NCBI RefSeq assembly: GCF_001592935.1
Contig: NZ_LRDB01000001.1
Location: 496,001 to 560,000 of the forward strand
DNA length: 64,000 nt
Direction of reading: 5' to 3'
From: Roseivirga echinicomitans
GTDB taxonomy: Bacteria; Bacteroidota; Bacteroidia; Cytophagales; Cyclobacteriaceae
Notes under the pieces: model-generated
What the model was told of the DNA's origin: nothing
The model's input: the letters and a program-made list of their open reading frames with translations, nothing else
Databases searched by the model: none
Part shown: positions 1-60,199 of the stretch, piece by piece
How positions within the stretch are numbered: the first letter of the stretch is position 1
How the letters are laid out: every line of letters begins with the position of its first letter
Position numbers and translations under genes: made by a program

Positions 1-91
1 ATGCAATGCATTACTGAAAAAGGAAATTTCCGTTTATCAAGTCTCGGCATAATCCTTGAGGCCTTTTGCGAGTCTTAGAAATCAGAATCCT

Positions 92-49325: not shown

Positions 49326-52300
49326 ATGGGTTCTAACCAATTACTAAAGCAGCAGATTCAGGCATATAAGAAAAAGTTCTACACTAACCGGTTGATCAAA
49401 GGCACTATTCTCTTTTTAGCCTTTTTCCTCAGCCTTTTTATTGTAGCCAATGCTTTTGAGTTTTCTGTACGCCTAAGTGGTGGTGGTAGAGCAATTCTTT
49501 TCTTTTCATTTGTCTTTGGAAGTCTATTGGCTTTCGTCTGGTTTATTGGAAAAAACCTATTCCATTTAAGAAATGCGCAGCAACACCTTTCAAACGAAGA
49601 GGCCTCTAAACAAATTGGAGCTCATTTTCCGGCAATTTCAGACAAGCTTTTAAATATAATTCAGTTAGAAAAGCTCAATACAGCTCAAAATGAGTTATTG
49701 CTGGCCAGCATAGAGCAAAAAAGTAACGAAGTTGGTAAAATTTCATTTGTCAACGCCATTGATTATAAAGGCAACCGAAAATACCTTCGTTATATAATCG
49801 GACCAGGTGCAATTATTGTTGTTCTGCTTCTCTTTATTCCACAGTTTCTTACAGAGAGCTCAACTAGAATTATCAACTACAATACTGAGTTTCTTCCAGA
49901 GGCTCCCTTTTCATTTTCAATCAAAAACCTCAATTTTCAAGCGTTTAAAGGTGAAAACTTCACATTAGAAGTAAACACCGAAGGAAGATCAACCCCTCAA
50001 AACCTTTATGTTTGGGCCAATAACCGAAAGGTAAAAGCCAATAAAACGGGTCCCGATAACTTTGAATATACCTTCACAAGAATTCAAGCAGGCACCAAGT
50101 TTTCTTTGGAAGCAGAAAGTATTACTTCTCCTGAATATGAAATCGAAGTCGTTTCTCGACCCTCACTCTCATTATTCAAACTTGAACTCGACTTTCCAAA
50201 ATATTTGAAACGTGAGAAAGAAGTATTAGAAAACTCTGGAAACGTTTCCATTCCTGAAGGCACTAAAGTGACATGGAAATTCAATACCGATAATACCGAT
50301 GAGGTGAAGCTTAATTTCCCAGAACTAAATGTATTCGGAAAAGCAAAAAAAAACTCAAATGGCGCTTTTACCTACGAACAAACGATCAACAAGTCGAGCC
50401 GTTATTCCATTCAACTTAAAAACGAATATAGCCTTAACCGCGACTCACTGGTTTTTGCTCTGGAGTCTGTGAAAGACCGTTATCCAGAAATTACCTTAGA
50501 TCAATATCAAGACACCGTCTTATTTAAGTCTTTGGTTCTCGGTGGAAATATTACCGATGATCATGGATTTTCTCGACTCTCTCTATTCTACCAATATCAG
50601 AATGAGCAAAGCTTCGAAGAACTTCCCTTAGAGCTTAATAGGGACTTGAGCAGCCAGAGTTATTATAAGATTTTCAAACTCGATTCAGCAAAAATCACGG
50701 CTGGTGCAGAAATCAAATATTACGTACAAGTTTCTGATAATGATGGAGTTAATGGTTCTAAATCTATGAAAACCAGCACTTATTCTTTCAAAATACCTTC
50801 TAAGGAAGAGATTGAAAAAGAAATAGATCGTTCCTCTGAAAAGGTTCAAAACGACATTGACAAAACCTTAAAAGAAGCTCAGGAATTAAATGAGAAGTTA
50901 GGTGAGGTAGATGAACGCCTGAAGACAAAGAAAGAATTGGATTGGCAAGATGAAAAGCTGATGCAAGATATTCTTAAGCAGAAAGAGCAACTGGCAGAAA
51001 AGTTAGAGGAGTTAAAGAAGGAAAATCAGCTCAATAACATGAAGAAAGAGCAATTCTCTCCTCAGAACGATAAGATTCAGGAAAAAATGAATCAGCTCCA
51101 AGAGTTGATGAATAACATTCTAGATGATGAAACAAAAAAACTCTATGATGAATTGAGAAAGCTGCTGGAAGATCAAGGGGAGATTTCTGAGTTCAGAGAT
51201 AAAATAGAGGAGATGAAAAATAAAGGAGGTGATCTTGAAAAGGAATTGGAAAGAACCCTAGAGCTGTTCAAAAAGCTCCAGTTCGACATGAAGCTCGAGG
51301 AGAGCATCAAGGAATTAGAAGAAGGAATAAAAGACCAAGAGCAGCTTATTGAAGATACTCAGAATGAAGAGGTAAATACGGATTCACTCAGTCAAAAACA
51401 AGCGCAGGAAAAAGAAGACCTAGAAAAGCTTCAAGAGAAAATGGACAAGTTGGAGGAGTTAAATCAGGAACGAAAAACTCCAGATGACCTGCCTAGCGAC
51501 ATAAAAGAGCAATTCGAAGAAATAAAAGAAGAGCAAGAAAAAGCAAAAGAAGAGCTACAAAAAGACGCTAAGCAAGAGAATAGCGAAGAGAAATCTGAAG
51601 GAGAGCAGGAAGAAGAAAACGAGAAGAGCGAAGAGGAACAACAAAAGGGTAAACCTTCACAGCAAAGACAAAACGCAACCAAAGCTCAGCAAAAAGCGGC
51701 TGAGAAAATGAAGGAGATGAAAAAGGACCTTGAGTCTATGCAAGGCGGTATGGAAATGGAACAACAGCAGGAAAATCTAGAGTTCTTAAAAGAACTAGTA
51801 GACAACCTTGTGACGCTTTCATTCAATCAGGAAGACCTTATGAATTCTTTCCGTGAAATACGCGAGAGCGACCCTCGTTTCATTGATCTCACGCAGAAAC
51901 AGCTCAAGCTTAAAGACGACTCTAAGATTGTTCAGGATAGCCTAATTTCGCTTTCTCAAAGAGTTTTCCAAATCTCATCCTTTGTAATGAGGGAAGTAAG
52001 TGAAATGAACCGCCAAATGGATGGCGCATTAGACGAGTTGAAAGAAAAGAGAATAAATCAAGCCACTGGTAAACAGCAGTTTACGATGACTTCTATCAAT
52101 AATTTGGCCTTGTTATTAGATGATATCGTTCAGCAAATGCAAAACCAAATGGCCAGCTCATCTAATAAAGGCAATAAAAAAAATAAGCCAATGCCTGGTG
52201 GCTTAAGTGAACTTCAAAAACAACTCAGTGAACAAATAAGCGAGTTAAAACAAAGCGGAAAATCAGGAAGACAACTTTCTGAGCAATTAGCGAAACTAGC

Positions 52301-52700
52301 AGCCGAACAGCAACGTTTGAGAAATGCCCTTGAAAATTTTGAAACCGGAGTTGATGGAGATAATTTAGGCGAGAAAATTGATAAGCTGATCGACCAAATG
52401 GAAAAGAATGAGGAAGATCTTATCAATAAAAACCTGACGGAGGAAACAGTAGAAAGACAGCAAGAAATTCTTACTCGCTTGTTAGAAGCTGAAAACGCCA
52501 TGAACGAAAGGGGTGAAGATGAAGAACGAAAGGCGCAAACTGCATCGGACTATGACATCTCGGTTCCTGAATCTATAAACGAATACCTTAAGGCTAAGGA
52601 AAAGGAAATAGAATTATTAAAAACTATCCCTGCAATCCTTAACCCATACTATAAGCAGGAGACGAACAAGTACTTCAAAAAAATAAAGCAGAAGAATTAA
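49326..52700 (+). CDS. Large DUF4175-like membrane protein with long charged coiled coils
   Basis: A 1124-residue protein. Hydrophobic segments near residues 22-40, 52-75 and 155-175 set it in the inner membrane; a beta-rich periplasmic domain follows (residues about 195-490), and from about 500 to the end there are long, very acidic and basic coiled-coil segments rich in Glu, Lys and Gln. The overall plan matches the DUF4175-like proteins found before an RsbW-like ATPase and ybeY in Bacteroidota; their function is unknown. AGGAG abuts the ATG, an unusually close Shine-Dalgarno spacing. Confidence 0.75.
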   Translation: MGSNQLLKQQIQAYKKKFYTNRLIKGTILFLAFFLSLFIVANAFEFSVRLSGGGRAILFFSFVFGSLLAFVWFIGKNLFHLRNAQQHLSNEEASKQIGAHFPAISDKLLNIIQLEKLNTAQNELLLASIEQKSNEVGKISFVNAIDYKGNRKYLRYIIGPGAIIVVLLLFIPQFLTESSTRIINYNTEFLPEAPFSFSIKNLNFQAFKGENFTLEVNTEGRSTPQNLYVWANNRKVKANKTGPDNFEYTFTRIQAGTKFSLEAESITSPEYEIEVVSRPSLSLFKLELDFPKYLKREKEVLENSGNVSIPEGTKVTWKFNTDNTDEVKLNFPELNVFGKAKKNSNGAFTYEQTINKSSRYSIQLKNEYSLNRDSLVFALESVKDRYPEITLDQYQDTVLFKSLVLGGNITDDHGFSRLSLFYQYQNEQSFEELPLELNRDLSSQSYYKIFKLDSAKITAGAEIKYYVQVSDNDGVNGSKSMKTSTYSFKIPSKEEIEKEIDRSSEKVQNDIDKTLKEAQELNEKLGEVDERLKTKKELDWQDEKLMQDILKQKEQLAEKLEELKKENQLNNMKKEQFSPQNDKIQEKMNQLQELMNNILDDETKKLYDELRKLLEDQGEISEFRDKIEEMKNKGGDLEKELERTLELFKKLQFDMKLEESIKELEEGIKDQEQLIEDTQNEEVNTDSLSQKQAQEKEDLEKLQEKMDKLEELNQERKTPDDLPSDIKEQFEEIKEEQEKAKEELQKDAKQENSEEKSEGEQEEENEKSEEEQQKGKPSQQRQNATKAQQKAAEKMKEMKKDLESMQGGMEMEQQQENLEFLKELVDNLVTLSFNQEDLMNSFREIRESDPRFIDLTQKQLKLKDDSKIVQDSLISLSQRVFQISSFVMREVSEMNRQMDGALDELKEKRINQATGKQQFTMTSINNLALLLDDIVQQMQNQMASSSNKGNKKNKPMPGGLSELQKQLSEQISELKQSGKSGRQLSEQLAKLAAEQQRLRNALENFETGVDGDNLGEKIDKLIDQMEKNEEDLINKNLTEETVERQQEILTRLLEAENAMNERGEDEERKAQTASDYDISVPESINEYLKAKEKEIELLKTIPAILNPYYKQETNKYFKKIKQKN

Positions 52701-53547: not shown

Positions 53548-53563
53548 TGTTCCACGTGAAACA
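53548..53563. other. parS site 1
   Basis: TGTTCCACGTGAAACA is an exact match to the consensus ParB-binding site TGTTNCACGTGAAACA. ParB bound here would spread along the DNA and load the SMC complex, so the site marks the region pulled apart first at cell division. Confidence 0.93.
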
Positions 53564-53584: not shown

Positions 53585-53600
53585 TGTTCCACGTGAAACA
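53585..53600. other. parS site 2
   Basis: A second exact TGTTCCACGTGAAACA, 37 bases from the first, both in the 88-base gap before mnmG. Two identical perfect copies in such a small gap make chance very unlikely. Confidence 0.93.
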
Positions 53601-53617: not shown

Positions 53618-55483
53618 ATGTTCAATCAATACGATGTCATAGTTGTTGGTGCCGGTCACGCTGGATGCGAAGCTGCAAATGCTGCCGCGACTATGGGTTC
53701 AAAGGTTCTGTTAGTAACCATGAACATGAATACCATAGCCCAAATGTCATGTAACCCAGCAATGGGAGGTGTGGCCAAAGGTCAAATCGTTAGGGAAATT
53801 GATGCGCTTGGAGGCATGTCGGGAATTGTTACCGATAAATCCATGATCCAATTCAGGATGCTCAACAAGTCAAAAGGCCCAGCCATGTGGAGTCCGCGTA
53901 CTCAAAGTGACCGAATGAGGTTTGCTGAAGAGTGGCGATTGGCACTAGAGAGTAATCCTAATGTTGATTTTTGGCAAGAAATGGTCACTGGCATTATTGT
54001 CGAAAACAATACTGCAGTGGGTATTACCACGGGAATGGGGATAGAAATTAGATCAAAATCTGTAATCCTTACCAATGGTACTTTCCTAAATGGCCTGATT
54101 CATATTGGAGAAAAGCAGTTTGGTGGCGGAAGAACAGGAGAAGGAGCATCCAAAGGAATCACCGAACAACTCGTTCAGCTTGGCTTTGAGTCCGGGAGAA
54201 TGAAGACAGGAACTCCTCCCAGAGTAGATGGTAGATCTTTAGACTATTCAAAAATGGAAGAACAGAAGGGGGATGAAGTGCCCGGAAAGTTCTCTTTTTC
54301 GCCATCAACAACTCCATTGGCACAACAAAGAAGTTGCTACATTACCTATACGAACCCGGAAGTACACGCAATATTAGAGACTGGTTTCGACAGGTCACCA
54401 ATGTTCAATGGTAGAATTCAAGGTTTAGGCCCACGCTATTGTCCATCTATTGAAGACAAAATCAATCGTTTTGCTGAGAGAACGAGGCATCAGGTTTTTG
54501 TTGAGCCTGAAGGTTGGGATACCGTTGAGATCTATGTCAATGGATTTTCAACATCTCTTCCTGAAGACGTACAGTTCAAAGCTATTCGTAAAATAGCTGG
54601 TTTCGAAAATGCTAAAATGTTCAGGCCAGGTTATGCCATCGAATATGATTATTTCCCCCCAACTCAGTTGAGCACAACACTCGAAACCAACCTTATTCAG
54701 AATCTATATTTCGCTGGCCAAATTAATGGAACCACTGGATATGAGGAAGCGGCCTGTCAAGGGTTAATGGCAGGAATCAATGCGCACAATAAAACACACG
54801 ATAAAGAGCCTTTTGTTTTAGGAAGGTCGGAAGCATATATCGGAGTATTGATTGATGACTTAATCAACAAAGGCACTGACGAACCTTATAGAATGTTCAC
54901 GTCTAGAGCTGAATACAGAATACTATTACGGCAAGATAATGCTGACATTCGTCTCACTGCAAAAGGTCATAAGCTAGGTTTGGCTTCGGACGAAAGACTC
55001 AAAATTGTAGAAGAGAAAAAGAAGTCTGTGTCGAAGTTATTGAACGATATTAGACAAAAGAAGATTGATCCTGATAAGGCCAATCCTGCACTTACTGCAC
55101 TTGGGACTGCAACAATAGAGCACCGAACCAATTATGCAAAACTGTTAAAGCGACCTCAAATAAACATCTACGACCTGCCTGCCTTTGATGAAGAAATGGC
55201 TGACTACTTAGCAAAGTATGATCCTGAGATTCTAGAGCAAGTTGATATTCTTATCAAATATGAAGACTACATAGACAAAGAGGAAAAGCTCGCAGACAAG
55301 ATCAGTAGCTTGGAAAATCATGCTATTCAGAATGACTTTGATTTTGATTCCATCAGCGCTCTATCTGCAGAAGCACGTGAGAAGTTCAAAAAAATAAAGC
55401 CATCTACCATCGGTCAAGCTTCCAGAATTAGTGGTGTTTCTCCAGCAGATATTTCAGTACTTATGGTATACATGGCGCAATAA
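53618..55483 (+). CDS. mnmG: tRNA uridine-5-carboxymethylaminomethyl synthase MnmG
   Basis: A 621-residue FAD-dependent enzyme that, with MnmE, modifies wobble uridine 34 of several tRNAs. The FAD motif VGAGHAGCEAANAAATMG opens the protein; GGRTGEGASKGITEQL, TGYEEAACQGLMAGINA and the helical C-terminus are typical, and length is normal. In many bacteria mnmG (gidA) sits close to the replication origin; here oriC is about 2.5 kb downstream and parS just upstream. It is transcribed towards oriC. Confidence 0.96.
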   Translation: MFNQYDVIVVGAGHAGCEAANAAATMGSKVLLVTMNMNTIAQMSCNPAMGGVAKGQIVREIDALGGMSGIVTDKSMIQFRMLNKSKGPAMWSPRTQSDRMRFAEEWRLALESNPNVDFWQEMVTGIIVENNTAVGITTGMGIEIRSKSVILTNGTFLNGLIHIGEKQFGGGRTGEGASKGITEQLVQLGFESGRMKTGTPPRVDGRSLDYSKMEEQKGDEVPGKFSFSPSTTPLAQQRSCYITYTNPEVHAILETGFDRSPMFNGRIQGLGPRYCPSIEDKINRFAERTRHQVFVEPEGWDTVEIYVNGFSTSLPEDVQFKAIRKIAGFENAKMFRPGYAIEYDYFPPTQLSTTLETNLIQNLYFAGQINGTTGYEEAACQGLMAGINAHNKTHDKEPFVLGRSEAYIGVLIDDLINKGTDEPYRMFTSRAEYRILLRQDNADIRLTAKGHKLGLASDERLKIVEEKKKSVSKLLNDIRQKKIDPDKANPALTALGTATIEHRTNYAKLLKRPQINIYDLPAFDEEMADYLAKYDPEILEQVDILIKYEDYIDKEEKLADKISSLENHAIQNDFDFDSISALSAEAREKFKKIKPSTIGQASRISGVSPADISVLMVYMAQ

Positions 55484-55486
55484 AGA

Positions 55487-56368
55487 ATGGAGAACTTAGA
55501 ACAATGTCCACTTTGCGGCAATTCTCATTTTGAACATCATTCAACAGTCAGTGATCACTTTTTAAGTCATGAAGTATTCGAACTGATGGAGTGTTCTTCA
55601 TGCCATTTGGTCTTTACTAATCCACGACCAATGCATACAGCAATTGGCCCTTATTATAAGTCAACCGATTATATATCTCATTCGAATAAAATAAAAAGCA
55701 TCTCCAGTATTCTATACAAGCTGGTGCGGTCATATACGCTTCGTAAAAAATATAGACTCATTCAATCCTTAATTGGCCAGACCTCAGAGATACATCATTT
55801 GGACTATGGTTCCGGCACCGGCCATTTCATAGATTATACTACAAAGAGGGGATGGGTTTCTAAAGGGTACGAACCGGACCAAAATGCATTAGAGCATAAT
55901 AATAAATCAATTCAAAAATTAATTCTACATAATTTAGAATCAATTCAACTTAATACTTACGATGTAATCACATTATTTCATGTTTTAGAGCACGTACATG
56001 ATCTCAATTCGGTACTAGCCTTACTCACCAAGCAACTCAAACCAAAGGGAATCTTATTACTCGCCCTTCCCAACCACAAATCCTTTGATGCTGAACATTA
56101 CCAGCAGCATTGGGCAGGTTATGATGTACCCAGACATCTATACCATTTCGATCGAAACTCCGTGAAACACTTAGCACAAGAACATGGCCTAAAAATTGAT
56201 AAAATCGAACCAATGGTATTCGATTCCTTTTACGTAAGTATGCTTTCAGAAAAATATGCGGGTAATTCTATGACACTAGTTCGTGGATTATTGAATGGAT
56301 TCAAATCTAACCGGAAAGCAACAAGCAATGGCGAATACAGTAGCTTAATTTATATTCTCAGAAAATGA
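55487..56368 (+). CDS. SAM-dependent methyltransferase with N-terminal zinc-type motif
   Basis: A 293-residue class I methyltransferase. The N-terminus has paired cysteines typical of a zinc site (CPLCGN, MECSSCHLVF), then TNPRP. The SAM-binding part shows HLDYGSGTGHFIDY, VITLFHVLEHVHDLNSV and LALPN. This form (Methyltransf_13/23-like) often methylates sugars or small metabolites, but the substrate is unknown. It follows mnmG by three bases and overlaps the Ig-like lipoprotein gene by four. Confidence 0.87.
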   Translation: MENLEQCPLCGNSHFEHHSTVSDHFLSHEVFELMECSSCHLVFTNPRPMHTAIGPYYKSTDYISHSNKIKSISSILYKLVRSYTLRKKYRLIQSLIGQTSEIHHLDYGSGTGHFIDYTTKRGWVSKGYEPDQNALEHNNKSIQKLILHNLESIQLNTYDVITLFHVLEHVHDLNSVLALLTKQLKPKGILLLALPNHKSFDAEHYQQHWAGYDVPRHLYHFDRNSVKHLAQEHGLKIDKIEPMVFDSFYVSMLSEKYAGNSMTLVRGLLNGFKSNRKATSNGEYSSLIYILRK

Positions 56369-58002
56369 CCAGAATACAGACCCTTTTCATTCTCATACTA
56401 TTATCACTATTGGGTTGTGCTCGCGTGTCATCACCAACTGGTGGACCGGAAGATAAAGACCCACCTGTACTAATAAATTCTAGTCCAAAAGATGGTCAAA
56501 CGCTATTCAATGAAAAGACCATTACCCTTGTATTTGATGAAGCTGTAACCACTAAATCCATTGATAATAATCTGATTATAACACCTTCCATTGAAGGCAA
56601 TTTCAAAACTCGAATTAAGCGTAATACTGTTTATCTCCTATTCGATAGTACTTGGAGAGAGAACACAACTTATTCCTTCAACTTCGGAAATACTATTCAG
56701 GACCTTAACGAAGGAAATGTTCCATCCAATCTTTACCTCAGCTTTTCTACAGGAGCAACTATTGATTCCTTAACCCTTTCAGGAAAAATAACAAACCTCT
56801 ATACTGCAGAACCTGTGAAGGAAGCGTTGGTTTCATTATATCCTTCGTCTGATACATTGAACATAACTTCTGGCGCAGCGCTATACTTGACAAAAACAGA
56901 TACCGCTGGTAACTATAAATTTCAAAATCTTCCCACGGGAAATTTCTTTGTTTATGCTGCTTTAGATAAAAACAACAACTCAAAAGCAGATACTGATAAA
57001 GAGTTATATGGCTTTTTGAAAGATACAGTTAAGCTCAACGAAAACACTTCGCAGCTTTCATTCTCACTACAGCGACTCAATGCCCTTCCTTTATCAATAA
57101 AGACAAACCGTCATTTCGGAAAATATTACGATATCACTTTCAACAAACCCATCACATCTTATCAATTGGAATCTCATAATGATACTCCTTTGGTTCATCA
57201 TCTCTATGCTCCTGATAAGATCAGAATTTATAATACCAAAGCCACCTACGGTGATTCAACAAAAGTTGTAGTACACGCAAATGATTCCATCAACAGTAAT
57301 TTAAAGCAAAACATAAAAGTCTACTTTAATGAGTCTGATTTAGATGGAGATAAACTCAACCAAGAAATTACTCCATCTTCATCATACGTTACAAATAATT
57401 TTGAATTGAAAGCAACTTTCAACAAACCCATTGCTACTTATCAAGCTGAAAAAGTCATTTTACAAAAGGACAGTCTAAATAAGTTTTCTTTACCCGATTC
57501 AATCCTCACATGGAACAGTTCCAAAACAGAAATTTCATGGTCACTAAATGCGAGCAATTTCATTAAACCTGGAGAACAGTTCAAAGCCATCTTCGAATCA
57601 GGAGCATTCATTAGCATTGAATCGGATACATCATCAGTTATTCAAAAAACATTTCAAGTAGCCAAATCTGAAGACTCTGGTATTATAGAAGGAACCATCG
57701 CAACTGATGCTCCCAACTTTATACTTCAGTTATTAAACAATCAAGGAAAAGTAATTCGTGAGCTGTACAATATCAAAAAGTACACCTTCAACAACCTTGA
57801 TGCTGGTAATTATAAAGTAAGAATGATAGTAGATACTAACAACAATAAAAGGCTAGATGTCGGAAATATCCTGACAAGAACATCTTCAGAAACAATTATT
57901 TTCTACACAGATCCATCTTCGAAAAGCAAAAATATAAGCGTTAAAAAGAACTGGGAAATAGGCGATATTAATATTTCACACACTGTGAATAACAACTATT
58001 AA
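56365..58002 (+). CDS. Ig-like domain lipoprotein (Big_5 type)
   Basis: A 545-residue lipoprotein (Cys18 in LLSLLGC) with the SPTGGPEDKDPPVLINSSP start typical of Bacteroidota proteins with a SbsA/Big_5 Ig-like domain, which covers about residues 35-135. Beta-sandwich regions follow, two with a YKFQNLPTGNFFVYAALDKN / KYTFNNLDAGNYKVRMIVDT pattern of carboxypeptidase-regulatory-like folds. Likely an outer-membrane-anchored structural or binding protein; role unknown. Its end contains the first DnaA box of the origin (57984-57992). Confidence 0.83.
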   Translation: MTRIQTLFILILLSLLGCARVSSPTGGPEDKDPPVLINSSPKDGQTLFNEKTITLVFDEAVTTKSIDNNLIITPSIEGNFKTRIKRNTVYLLFDSTWRENTTYSFNFGNTIQDLNEGNVPSNLYLSFSTGATIDSLTLSGKITNLYTAEPVKEALVSLYPSSDTLNITSGAALYLTKTDTAGNYKFQNLPTGNFFVYAALDKNNNSKADTDKELYGFLKDTVKLNENTSQLSFSLQRLNALPLSIKTNRHFGKYYDITFNKPITSYQLESHNDTPLVHHLYAPDKIRIYNTKATYGDSTKVVVHANDSINSNLKQNIKVYFNESDLDGDKLNQEITPSSSYVTNNFELKATFNKPIATYQAEKVILQKDSLNKFSLPDSILTWNSSKTEISWSLNASNFIKPGEQFKAIFESGAFISIESDTSSVIQKTFQVAKSEDSGIIEGTIATDAPNFILQLLNNQGKVIRELYNIKKYTFNNLDAGNYKVRMIVDTNNNKRLDVGNILTRTSSETIIFYTDPSSKSKNISVKKNWEIGDINISHTVNNNY

Positions 58003-58003
58003 C

Positions 58004-58301
58004 TGTGAATAAGAAAGAGGGTAGAGACACTACCATCCACACTCATCCACATTCCTCCCTAACAACATCAGGCCAAGTGGATAAAACCTCAACCTTTCAC
58101 GTAATTTTCAAAACCTCATCCACATTTTAAAAGTCATTAATCATTATCCACAAAATGACGGACTTTTTATTCAAATTTCTTAAGTACTTATTAATCAATA
58201 TATTGAAAGTTAATAAGATGTTTATAACCTTAAATAAGTATACAAGTTGTTCACAGATCTAAATACAAAATGTGAGTAATGAAGTTATACACATATCCAC
58301 A
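58004..58301. other. Predicted chromosomal replication origin (oriC)
   Basis: A 370-base gap crowded with DnaA boxes. Perfect or TTATNCACA-type sites: minus TTATTCACA (58004-58012), TTATCCACA (58144-58152), TTATACACA (58285-58293); another TTATTCACA (57984-57992) lies in the upstream gene. Variants with one or two mismatches: CCATCCACA (58033-58041), TCATCCACA (58043-58051 and 58116-58124), minus TTATCCACT (58076-58084), TTGTTCACA (58247-58255), minus TTACTCACA (58271-58279) and ATATCCACA (58293-58301). A very AT-rich stretch at about 58155-58245 would be the unwinding element. parS sites lie 4.4 kb away. Confidence 0.92.
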
Positions 58302-58375
58302 GTCTTAATAGAGAGTAATTATCTTTAATCAATTAACTATCTTTAATTACTACCGTGTTGAAAATGTTGACAACT

Positions 58376-60199
58376 ATGAGGAAAACAGCTCTTTTACTTT
58401 TTATGATACTCATGAGTACTATTGCTTTTTCGCAAGTCGATGCGATAGCACTTGCCAATGAATACTATGAACAAGGAGAATTTGAGAAAGCACTTAAGGA
58501 ATATAAAAGATTAGCGAAGGACAACTCAAATATTTCTCGAATACATGAAAATTACCTGAAGTTACTTCTAAGTGAAGAAGAATTTAATGAAGCTGAAAAA
58601 TATCTAAAGGGTACGATTAAGGATAACCCAGATAACTTCTTCTATAAAGTTGACTTAGGTATGTTGTACAAAAGTCAAAAGGACGAAGAGAAAGCTGAGA
58701 AGGTATTCAATGATATAATTGCCGAACAGGCGAAAGACGCTGGAGAAAACAATAAAACGAATGGCATAAGGTTTTTAGCACAGGTGTTCTTCGAGAAGAA
58801 CTTAAGGCAAAAAGCACTGGAAACTTATCAAGAAGGAAGAAAGGCAATGAACCGTCCCGATATGTTTTCATTAGAACTTGCGAATGCTTACCAACTGATG
58901 AACCAAAAGCAAGAGATGGTTTTGGAATACCTCGTTTTTTCAAAATCTCAGCCGCAAAACCTCAGCTATGTTAAAAACTCATTTCAAAGAGCGCTTACCG
59001 AACCAGAAGATTTAGATACACTTGAGACTACGCTCTATGATTTCATTCAGAAAGACGCGGGTAACCCCATCTACAACGATCTATTGGTATGGACACACCT
59101 ACAACAGAAAAATTTTTCCGCTGCCTTACGGCAGGCTAGAGCGCTTGATAGAAGACTTCAGAACAATGCCGAGAACATTATTAACGTTGGTCTCATCGCT
59201 TTTAGAAATCAAGAATATAAAACTGCGCAAAAGGCCTTCGATTATGTTTTGAATGAGTTTCCAGAGAGCCCCAGTCGGAGTTTAGCATCACGTTATGTTC
59301 TATTGGCGGATGAAGAGGTGGTAAAAGAAACTTATCCGGTAGATACTACAGCTATTAAAAGTCTGATTGTTAAATATCAGGACTATAAAGAAAGCTTGCG
59401 TGATGTCTTTAATATCATTGACGCCAATCGAAGGGTTGCTCATCTGTATGCCTTTTACTTAAATGAAATTCCGAAAGCCATTGAAATTCTTACGGAAAAT
59501 GTGAACCAACCGGTTGGTAAGCACAGAGTAATTGCTGAGTCTAAAATGGACTTGGCAGATATATATCTGCTCAATGAAGAACCCTGGGAATCTATTTTGC
59601 TTTATGCTCAGGTAGAAAGAATGTTTAAAGACGAACCGTTGGGATATGAAGCTAAATTGAAGAGCGCGAAGCTTTCTTACTTCAAAGGTGAGTTTGAGCT
59701 TGCCCAAAGTCACTTGGATATTCTGAAGCTCGCCACATCAAGAGAAATTGCTAATGACGCTTTGAACTTGAGTATTCTAATTAAGAACAATACAGTTTTT
59801 GATTCAACCGATGTGGTAATGCAAGAGTACGCAAATATTGAACTTCAGCTTTTTCAGAATCAAAAAAATGAAGCCATAGCAGCATTGAATCAAATGATTG
59901 TAAAATATCCGAACCACTCCATTATTGATGAAGTCTATTTTTTAATGGCTAAAACAGAAAGAGAACTTGGTCATTTTGATAAAGCCTTAACGGCATTGGG
60001 CGTAATAAATGAGGGGCATTATTATGAAATTTTGGGCGATGACGCCTTATTTCTCACAGGTATTATTTTGGAAGATGATTTAAAAGACAATGAAAAGGCA
60101 ATGGAGGTTTACCTTCAGCTTCTCGAAAAATTCAAGGGAAGTATCTTTGTTTCAGAAGCCAGAAAAAGACTCAGAGAACTACGAGGAGACTTTGGTTAA
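58376..60199 (+). CDS. Secreted tetratricopeptide-repeat protein
   Basis: A 607-residue exported protein: signal peptide of about 19 residues (TALLLFMILMSTIAFSQ), then many helical TPR-like repeats through the whole length (for example ANEYYEQGEFEKALKEYKRL, and a last one near YPNHSIIDEVYFLMAKTERE). Such proteins usually scaffold complexes in the periplasm or at the outer membrane. Starts at 58355 and 58364 are also open, but 58376 gives the best signal peptide. A near -7 box (TATCTTTA, 58338-58345) precedes it. It is the first gene to the right of oriC. Confidence 0.82.
   Translation: MRKTALLLFMILMSTIAFSQVDAIALANEYYEQGEFEKALKEYKRLAKDNSNISRIHENYLKLLLSEEEFNEAEKYLKGTIKDNPDNFFYKVDLGMLYKSQKDEEKAEKVFNDIIAEQAKDAGENNKTNGIRFLAQVFFEKNLRQKALETYQEGRKAMNRPDMFSLELANAYQLMNQKQEMVLEYLVFSKSQPQNLSYVKNSFQRALTEPEDLDTLETTLYDFIQKDAGNPIYNDLLVWTHLQQKNFSAALRQARALDRRLQNNAENIINVGLIAFRNQEYKTAQKAFDYVLNEFPESPSRSLASRYVLLADEEVVKETYPVDTTAIKSLIVKYQDYKESLRDVFNIIDANRRVAHLYAFYLNEIPKAIEILTENVNQPVGKHRVIAESKMDLADIYLLNEEPWESILLYAQVERMFKDEPLGYEAKLKSAKLSYFKGEFELAQSHLDILKLATSREIANDALNLSILIKNNTVFDSTDVVMQEYANIELQLFQNQKNEAIAALNQMIVKYPNHSIIDEVYFLMAKTERELGHFDKALTALGVINEGHYYEILGDDALFLTGIILEDDLKDNEKAMEVYLQLLEKFKGSIFVSEARKRLRELRGDFG

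Follow-up and report, generated by a model that had tools for sequence, protein, structure and literature searches.

Replication origins located away from dnaA have been predicted in several members of the Bacteroidota. In Mariniflexile litorale the position of dnaA disagreed with the skew and Ori-Finder placed oriC beside mnmG, with a figure legend that swaps the labels of the text (PMC11278836); in Algorimicrobium oriC is placed at mnmG and was checked by skew (PMC12843772), and for Elizabethkingia oriC is predicted at 0.74 Mb, with dnaA at 2.61 Mb (PMC8994065). According to Ori-Finder 2022, oriC can also lie away from dnaA (PMC10225481). Going by the accessible parts of these reports, a dnaA-distant, mnmG-linked origin is thus established as a prediction in the phylum. 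The Roseivirga locus described here resembles the mnmG-adjacent oriC of the Flavobacteriaceae (PMC11278836, PMC12843772) in that the origin is by mnmG and agrees with the GC skew, but the Flavobacteriaceae cases are software predictions from another part of the Bacteroidota, and the lipoprotein and TPR neighbours, the parS at the origin and the unwinding module of Roseivirga are not described in the available portions of those two accounts. A similar relationship is seen with the Gammaproteobacteria (E. coli and Yersinia; PMC10225481), in which oriC is near gidA and a DnaA-box cluster is accompanied by an unwinding site; however, their oriC lies between gidA and mioC, whereas in Roseivirga two further genes separate mnmG from oriC. 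For the opening of the DNA, the closest described system is the basal unwinding system (BUS) of B. subtilis, in which box-bound DnaA assembles onto single-stranded trios and which is predicted in most bacterial origins; its rule is three or more consecutive trios with a spacer of 0-16 bp (PMC8287927).

We found nothing in the literature on the Roseivirga replication origin, and noticed no account of a Cytophagales lipoprotein/TPR origin locus in a search made largely at title level and with DoriC outside it. An oriC plasmid of C. hutchinsonii was reportedly described by Xu in 2012. The window analysed here is a 64,000-nucleotide stretch of the Roseivirga echinicomitans genome (C1:496001-560000, forward strand, where C1 is contig NZ_LRDB01000001.1), taken from an assembly of 4.18 Mb in 52 contigs; positions without a contig name are those of the window. 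Within it a DnaA-box cluster and unwinding region at 57984-58352 is proposed as oriC from its box count, the GC3-skew change point and its position in relatives, and we are highly confident that this gap is the chromosomal replication origin of the Roseivirga genome. A sequence-only reading of the window had proposed an oriC at a non-dnaA locus, which at the level of sequence is supported by the GC3 break, parS, the conserved position and a conserved unwinding motif; the place that it gave (58004-58301) is right, and the right end is now at about 58352.

The gap extends from the stop codon of a lipoprotein gene at 58002 to the start of a TPR gene (GTG at 58355 or ATG at 58376). Both neighbours had been recognised from the sequence, and the proteins are indeed an Ig-like (Big_5/DUF2141) lipoprotein (56365-58002, plus strand) and a TPR protein (58376-60199, plus strand, with the possible GTG start at 58355), the latter with best-segment identities of 94% to its counterpart in Roseivirga ehrenbergii and 92% to that in R. 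seohaensis. That list of neighbours omitted the key ones, mnmG and parS. A methyltransferase gene (55487-56368, plus strand) precedes the lipoprotein gene, and is itself preceded by mnmG (gidA; 53618-55483, plus strand, 621 aa), an oriC-indicator gene and known neighbour of origins, which ends 2.5 kb left of the first DnaA box. Further left in the window, at 50500-52700, we note a strongly purine-rich coding stretch with an AT skew of about 0.3, which lies within a DUF4175 protein of 1124 aa that has long segments rich in E, K and Q.

Taking TTATNCACA as the DnaA box and allowing one mismatch for a near box, there are 12 boxes in the 360 bp from 57984, compared to a mean expectation of 0.34; about ten had been claimed for a gap of about 370 bases. 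The perfect boxes reported earlier are borne out by four exact matches, which are TTATTCACA at 57984-57992 (minus strand, inside the last lipoprotein codons) and again at 58004-58012 (minus), TTATCCACA at 58144-58152 (plus), and the first of two tandem overlapping boxes, TTATACACA and ATATCCACA, at 58285-58301 (plus), which form the proposed platform of the unwinding module. Near boxes include TCATCCACA at 58043-58051 and 58116-58124 (both plus, the second retained in several Roseivirga), TTATCCACT at 58076-58084 (minus), TTGTTCACA at 58247-58255 (plus) and TTACTCACA at 58271-58279 (minus). Using 40 stretches that cover 800 of the 818 kb of C1 as background for both skew and box density, the densest separate place has five boxes at the same threshold. 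Genome-wide there are 153 exact boxes (115 for a reversed-pattern control), of which four are within 310 bp at the gap. Over the whole window TTWTNCACA is found nine times against 9.09 expected and shows no excess, so that it is the clustering that is unusual. The gap also contains a central AT-rich block at 58162-58251, which is the best 90-bp window (82% A+T, the 99.97th percentile of 90-bp windows in the 800 kb) and agrees with the AT-rich stretch of about 90 bases noted before.

The strand composition changes at the same place, although the 60-base line counts of G and C from which the change was originally argued do not stand: a recount disagrees line for line, and several lines are flat on both sides. 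The flip itself is upheld, with a 2-kb right-minus-left contrast at the gap that exceeds at least 99.99% of positions in 800 kb. The assembly is in 52 contigs, and all skew figures for this genome refer to C1. A cumulative skew minimum had been named as the deciding check, and over 800 of the 818 kb of C1 the strand-corrected GC3 break falls at the gap and the raw minimum does not. Cumulative GC skew has a clear V shape, but in raw form it reaches its minimum at C1:529534, which is 24 kb to the left of the gap, and it was rejected as a locator on that account. Because gene direction distorts raw skew, third-position skew was fitted as a function of gene strand and side in 644 mechanically chosen ORFs at 380 grid points between 20 and 780 kb. 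The best break of the 380 is at 554000, which is the gap; in 200 resamplings of the ORFs, with the break sought over 400-700 kb, it falls between 544 and 568 kb (2.5-97.5%) and is within 10 kb in 80.5%. Across the gap from left to right the plus-strand GC3 skew of plus ORFs rises from -0.093 to +0.033 and that of minus ORFs from 0.008 to 0.115; the switch is present on both strands. Other compositional measures agree less well, in that the T-A minimum is 21 kb and the intergenic GC minimum 41 kb to the right of the gap, and the gene-orientation bias is weak (44% plus to the left, 53% to the right); T-A skew, intergenic skew and gene orientation were all rejected as origin locators for being too noisy.

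Given the raw minimum and the width of the bootstrap interval, the gap could be an accessory cluster to an origin that really lies elsewhere within about 10-25 kb, such as at parS or in front of mnmG. However, a second box cluster is absent from 544-568 kb and the module profile described below matches only the gap, and we regard such a displaced origin as highly improbable.

The proposed origin in the gap also has putative segregation sequences close by. Two plus-strand parS sites (TGTTCCACGTGAAACA) are located 37 bp apart between ybeY and mnmG, 4.4 kb left of the gap, at 53548-53563 (C1:549548) and 53585-53600 (C1:549585). They are identical, nearly perfect and side by side, and are the only sites in the genome with two or fewer mismatches to the parS consensus. 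The reversed control has four sites at this threshold against two for parS, so the number of sites means nothing and the weight is on their nearness, exactness and recurrence in relatives. The only ParB match in the genome is on another contig (C49) and thus does not help with position.

The statement that the gap is not by dnaA holds, as dnaA is at C1:176013, 378 kb away. It is single and intact, with one Bac_DnaA match without an internal stop in a 476-aa frame that begins with TTG, and there is no exact TTATNCACA within 15 kb of it. Sampled skew in relatives was read from 20 stretches in each of three single-contig genomes (G012, G036 and G047), and fits the origin locus in 18, 15 and 18 stretches and dnaA in 4, 15 and 10, respectively. 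An origin at dnaA was rejected on the lack of exact boxes within 15 kb and on the sampled skew, which contradicts dnaA in G012 and G047. G036 is less clear, in that dnaA fits equally well (15/20, the same as the candidate locus) and the best sampled skew origin is at 1.0-1.3 Mb, compared to 0.84 Mb for the locus. In G047 the skew sign flips between two adjacent stretches at the locus, with the raw fine-scale minimum about 7 kb to the left. Across five single-contig relatives (G012, G028, G030, G036 and G047) dnaA is about 0.86 to 2.4 Mb from the locus, if the contigs are circular. Some genomes (G012, G030, G047, G049 and G174) have extra weak Bac_DnaA matches in frames of 243-290 aa, several with identical scores in one genome, and these are probably IstB-like ATPases of insertion sequences.

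The position of the cluster is shared by the loci examined in the GTDB family Cyclobacteriaceae, which is represented here by 60 genomes including this one. The lipoprotein is present in 56 of the 60 and the TPR protein in 41, and in 40 of these 41 the two are on one contig and strand and less than 2 kb apart; in the exception (G011) they are on different contigs. Comparison with related genomes had been suggested as a check, and in all 30 of the lipoprotein-centred loci examined (30 of the 56 lipoprotein-bearing genomes) the densest box window, with 5-13 boxes, is just downstream of the lipoprotein, with a start anywhere from 16 bp ahead of the match end to 507 bp beyond it. Viewed from the TPR gene, 29 of 30 loci have their densest window (4-14 boxes) beginning 251-526 bp before the TPR match, and the remaining one (L053) is cut at a contig end; these densest-window counts have no shuffle control and, being related, the genomes do not count as independent evidence. 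Of 30 chosen relatives, 22 have an exact parS (TGTTNCACGTGNAACA), and all of the sites are at the origin locus, 2.7-4.2 kb from the lipoprotein match, compared to one of 30 with a match to the reversed pattern; no exact site was found in the other eight, which counts against the reading as oriC.

With the cluster directly upstream of the TPR gene, the gap could alternatively be a DnaA-regulated promoter region for that gene, with the origin elsewhere. But the cluster persists downstream of the lipoprotein in 11 family genomes without a TPR match (L087-L091, L093, L094, L096, L098, L099 and L101), 12 boxes are very many for a promoter, and both skew and parS fit an origin; we therefore consider a promoter without an origin to be extremely unlikely.

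The right end of the gap (58285-58352) contains a conserved module consistent with a role of the gap as oriC, composed of the tandem boxes, a 4-base spacer, the sequence TAATAG, and an AT-rich tract. The spacer to the two DnaA-trio-like triplets TAA TAG (58306-58311, plus strand) is 12 bp from the first tandem box and 4 bp from the second, and from the trios onwards the tract at 58306-58352 (plus strand, about 39 of 47 positions A+T) is the proposed DNA-unwinding element (DUE). This is the layout of BUS, with tandem boxes followed by TAG/TAA-type trios within 16 bp, and the 12 bp from the first box is inside the published peak of 10-13 (PMC8287927). It differs from BUS in having only two in-phase trios, in being away from dnaA, and in the one-base displacement of further triplets in 12 of 25 readable relatives. 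From its match to the BUS layout, melting most likely starts at 58306-58352, and this right-hand tract rather than the central AT-rich block is probably the melting site, as judged from sequence.

Of 36 upstream regions (29 family genomes and seven named loci, leaving out L053, with only 8 bp upstream, and L109, a short 28% match to another phylum), 27 have a strict pattern of box plus two trios on the forward strand, toward the TPR gene, compared to 5% for shuffles. Three of the 36 have it on the reverse strand; the window is one of these, with a single minus-strand match at box 58004, by the left end of the gap, which counts against the reading as oriC. Tandem boxes are found by a looser pattern in 25 of 29 family regions. 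A profile built from 19 relatives without Roseivirga matches C1:554284-554333 with an E value of 4.8e-5; the runners-up on C1 are a match on the opposite strand at almost the same position (E 0.1) and then an unrelated site (E 18). At E values of 0.01 or less the profile matches 18 of 24 lipoprotein loci of non-training genomes (this one and G057 included), and four of 20 order-level loci.

A more complex picture is seen with the trios. At the tandem boxes of the window there is no run of three or more consecutive trios (.A.), as only TAA TAG is in phase, which counts against a standard BUS there, while other boxes of the gap do conform to the loose BUS rule. This rule is satisfied in 28 of 29 family regions compared to 29% of shuffles, so that a single match says little; three consecutive TA[AG] triplets are present in 11 of the 29, compared to 0.07% of shuffles. 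In the 25 of 36 regions that are readable, the first run has exactly two trios in 21, three in three and five in one. At an offset of one base a second run (two or more TA[AG] triplets) is seen in nine, at four bases, which is the same phase slip, in three, and at three bases in one; it is absent from the remaining 12, including the window, which has a lone third TAA at offset four. In shuffles a second run occurs at about 1% for each offset and at 23% anywhere. The one-base slip is thus seen in 12 of the 25 readable relatives, which through kinship are not 12 independent events, and might be a new feature of trio arrays.

DnaA binding is not initiation, and a box cluster alone cannot separate the two. 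The gap could accordingly be a titration or reactivation site (datA/DARS-like) near the origin that soaks up DnaA without starting replication, and extra exact boxes are found near the origin of one relative, G047, with 12 in one 20-kb stretch. However, there is no competing cluster on the 800 kb, the skew switches at the gap, and the module of tandem boxes, trios and AT tract together with the parS neighbourhood are origin features; a titration site in place of an origin is very unlikely. The stretch in G047 (L155, G047:C1:1413415-1433414) covers 20 kb to the left of and into its origin, and its 12 exact boxes, two of which are in the origin gap and four in one ORF (1422066-1422508), compare with 0-4 in 19 other 20-kb stretches; the extra boxes are possibly a DnaA-titration array. 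A second origin candidate left of mnmG in G047, based on the exact boxes at 1422066-1422508 and a raw skew minimum at 1425842, was rejected in that the boxes are inside an ORF and the lipoprotein is here too directly followed by the densest cluster.

With the gap as oriC, a plausible scenario for its use in vivo is that DnaA encoded 378 kb away would bind the box cluster and form a filament extending from the tandem boxes at 58285-58301 onto the TAA/TAG triplets to their right, which would melt the AT-rich tract at 58306-58352. The helicase would be loaded at the melted tract, and two forks would leave in opposite directions, so that strand composition switches at the gap. Segregation of the new origins would then fall to ParB, bound to the pair of parS sites 4.4 kb left of the gap.

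Outside the family, the surroundings of mnmG were read in 20 genomes that each represent another family of the order, with the stretches of f6, f8 and f13 shortened by contig ends. The top box cluster exceeds each of 20 shuffles in 11 of the 20 families, and is 1.0-3.9 kb downstream of mnmG in ten of these and 7.7 kb in one. In f10, f15 and f19 a cluster is correctly placed but does not exceed the shuffles, and around mnmG in f2, f6, f8, f9, f14 and f20 there is no convincing box cluster; a universal rule of a cluster after mnmG across the order was rejected on this survey. At the class level the survey covers the linkage of mnmG, parS and dnaA rather than the origin itself. Exact parS sites are present in 25 of 40 genomes of the order and class, and at least one site is 2 kb or less from the mnmG match in 19 of the 25 (from tables read by eye); in the others the sites are about 25 and 43 kb from mnmG in two and on another contig in four. 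When sought in 18 of the order and class genomes dnaA was found in 17, on the mnmG contig in 12, and in 11 of these 12 it is distant from mnmG (at least about 0.3 Mb). Thus mnmG and parS are widely, but not universally, linked.

It is possible, and we suggest this tentatively, that a fixed cassette of parS, mnmG, methyltransferase, lipoprotein and oriC has served as the anchor of the chromosome across at least one Cytophagales family (and probably much of the order) while dnaA moved freely, and that the module is often a split trio array, with two trios, a one-base slip and two to four more, in which the DnaA filament would tolerate or use the phase break on single-stranded DNA. Such an array lends itself directly to testing how DNA is opened by DnaA in bacteria other than the models. 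With a recognisable origin locus, correct read-depth growth-rate estimates, oriC plasmids and genome rotation would also become possible in this group.

Two of the five single-contig relatives (G028 and G047) have their numbering start at dnaA in the manner of an origin, although the mnmG-linked origin locus is about 0.96 and 1.43 Mb, respectively, from the dnaA start point. Contigs G094:C1, G095:C1 and G144:C1, like those of G028 and G047 (both C1), start within 1.7 kb of dnaA and were apparently rotated to it as the presumed origin; G094 and G095 have no convincing box cluster near mnmG. G144 is a class member in which dnaA is only about 15 kb from mnmG (G144:C1:551-17672).
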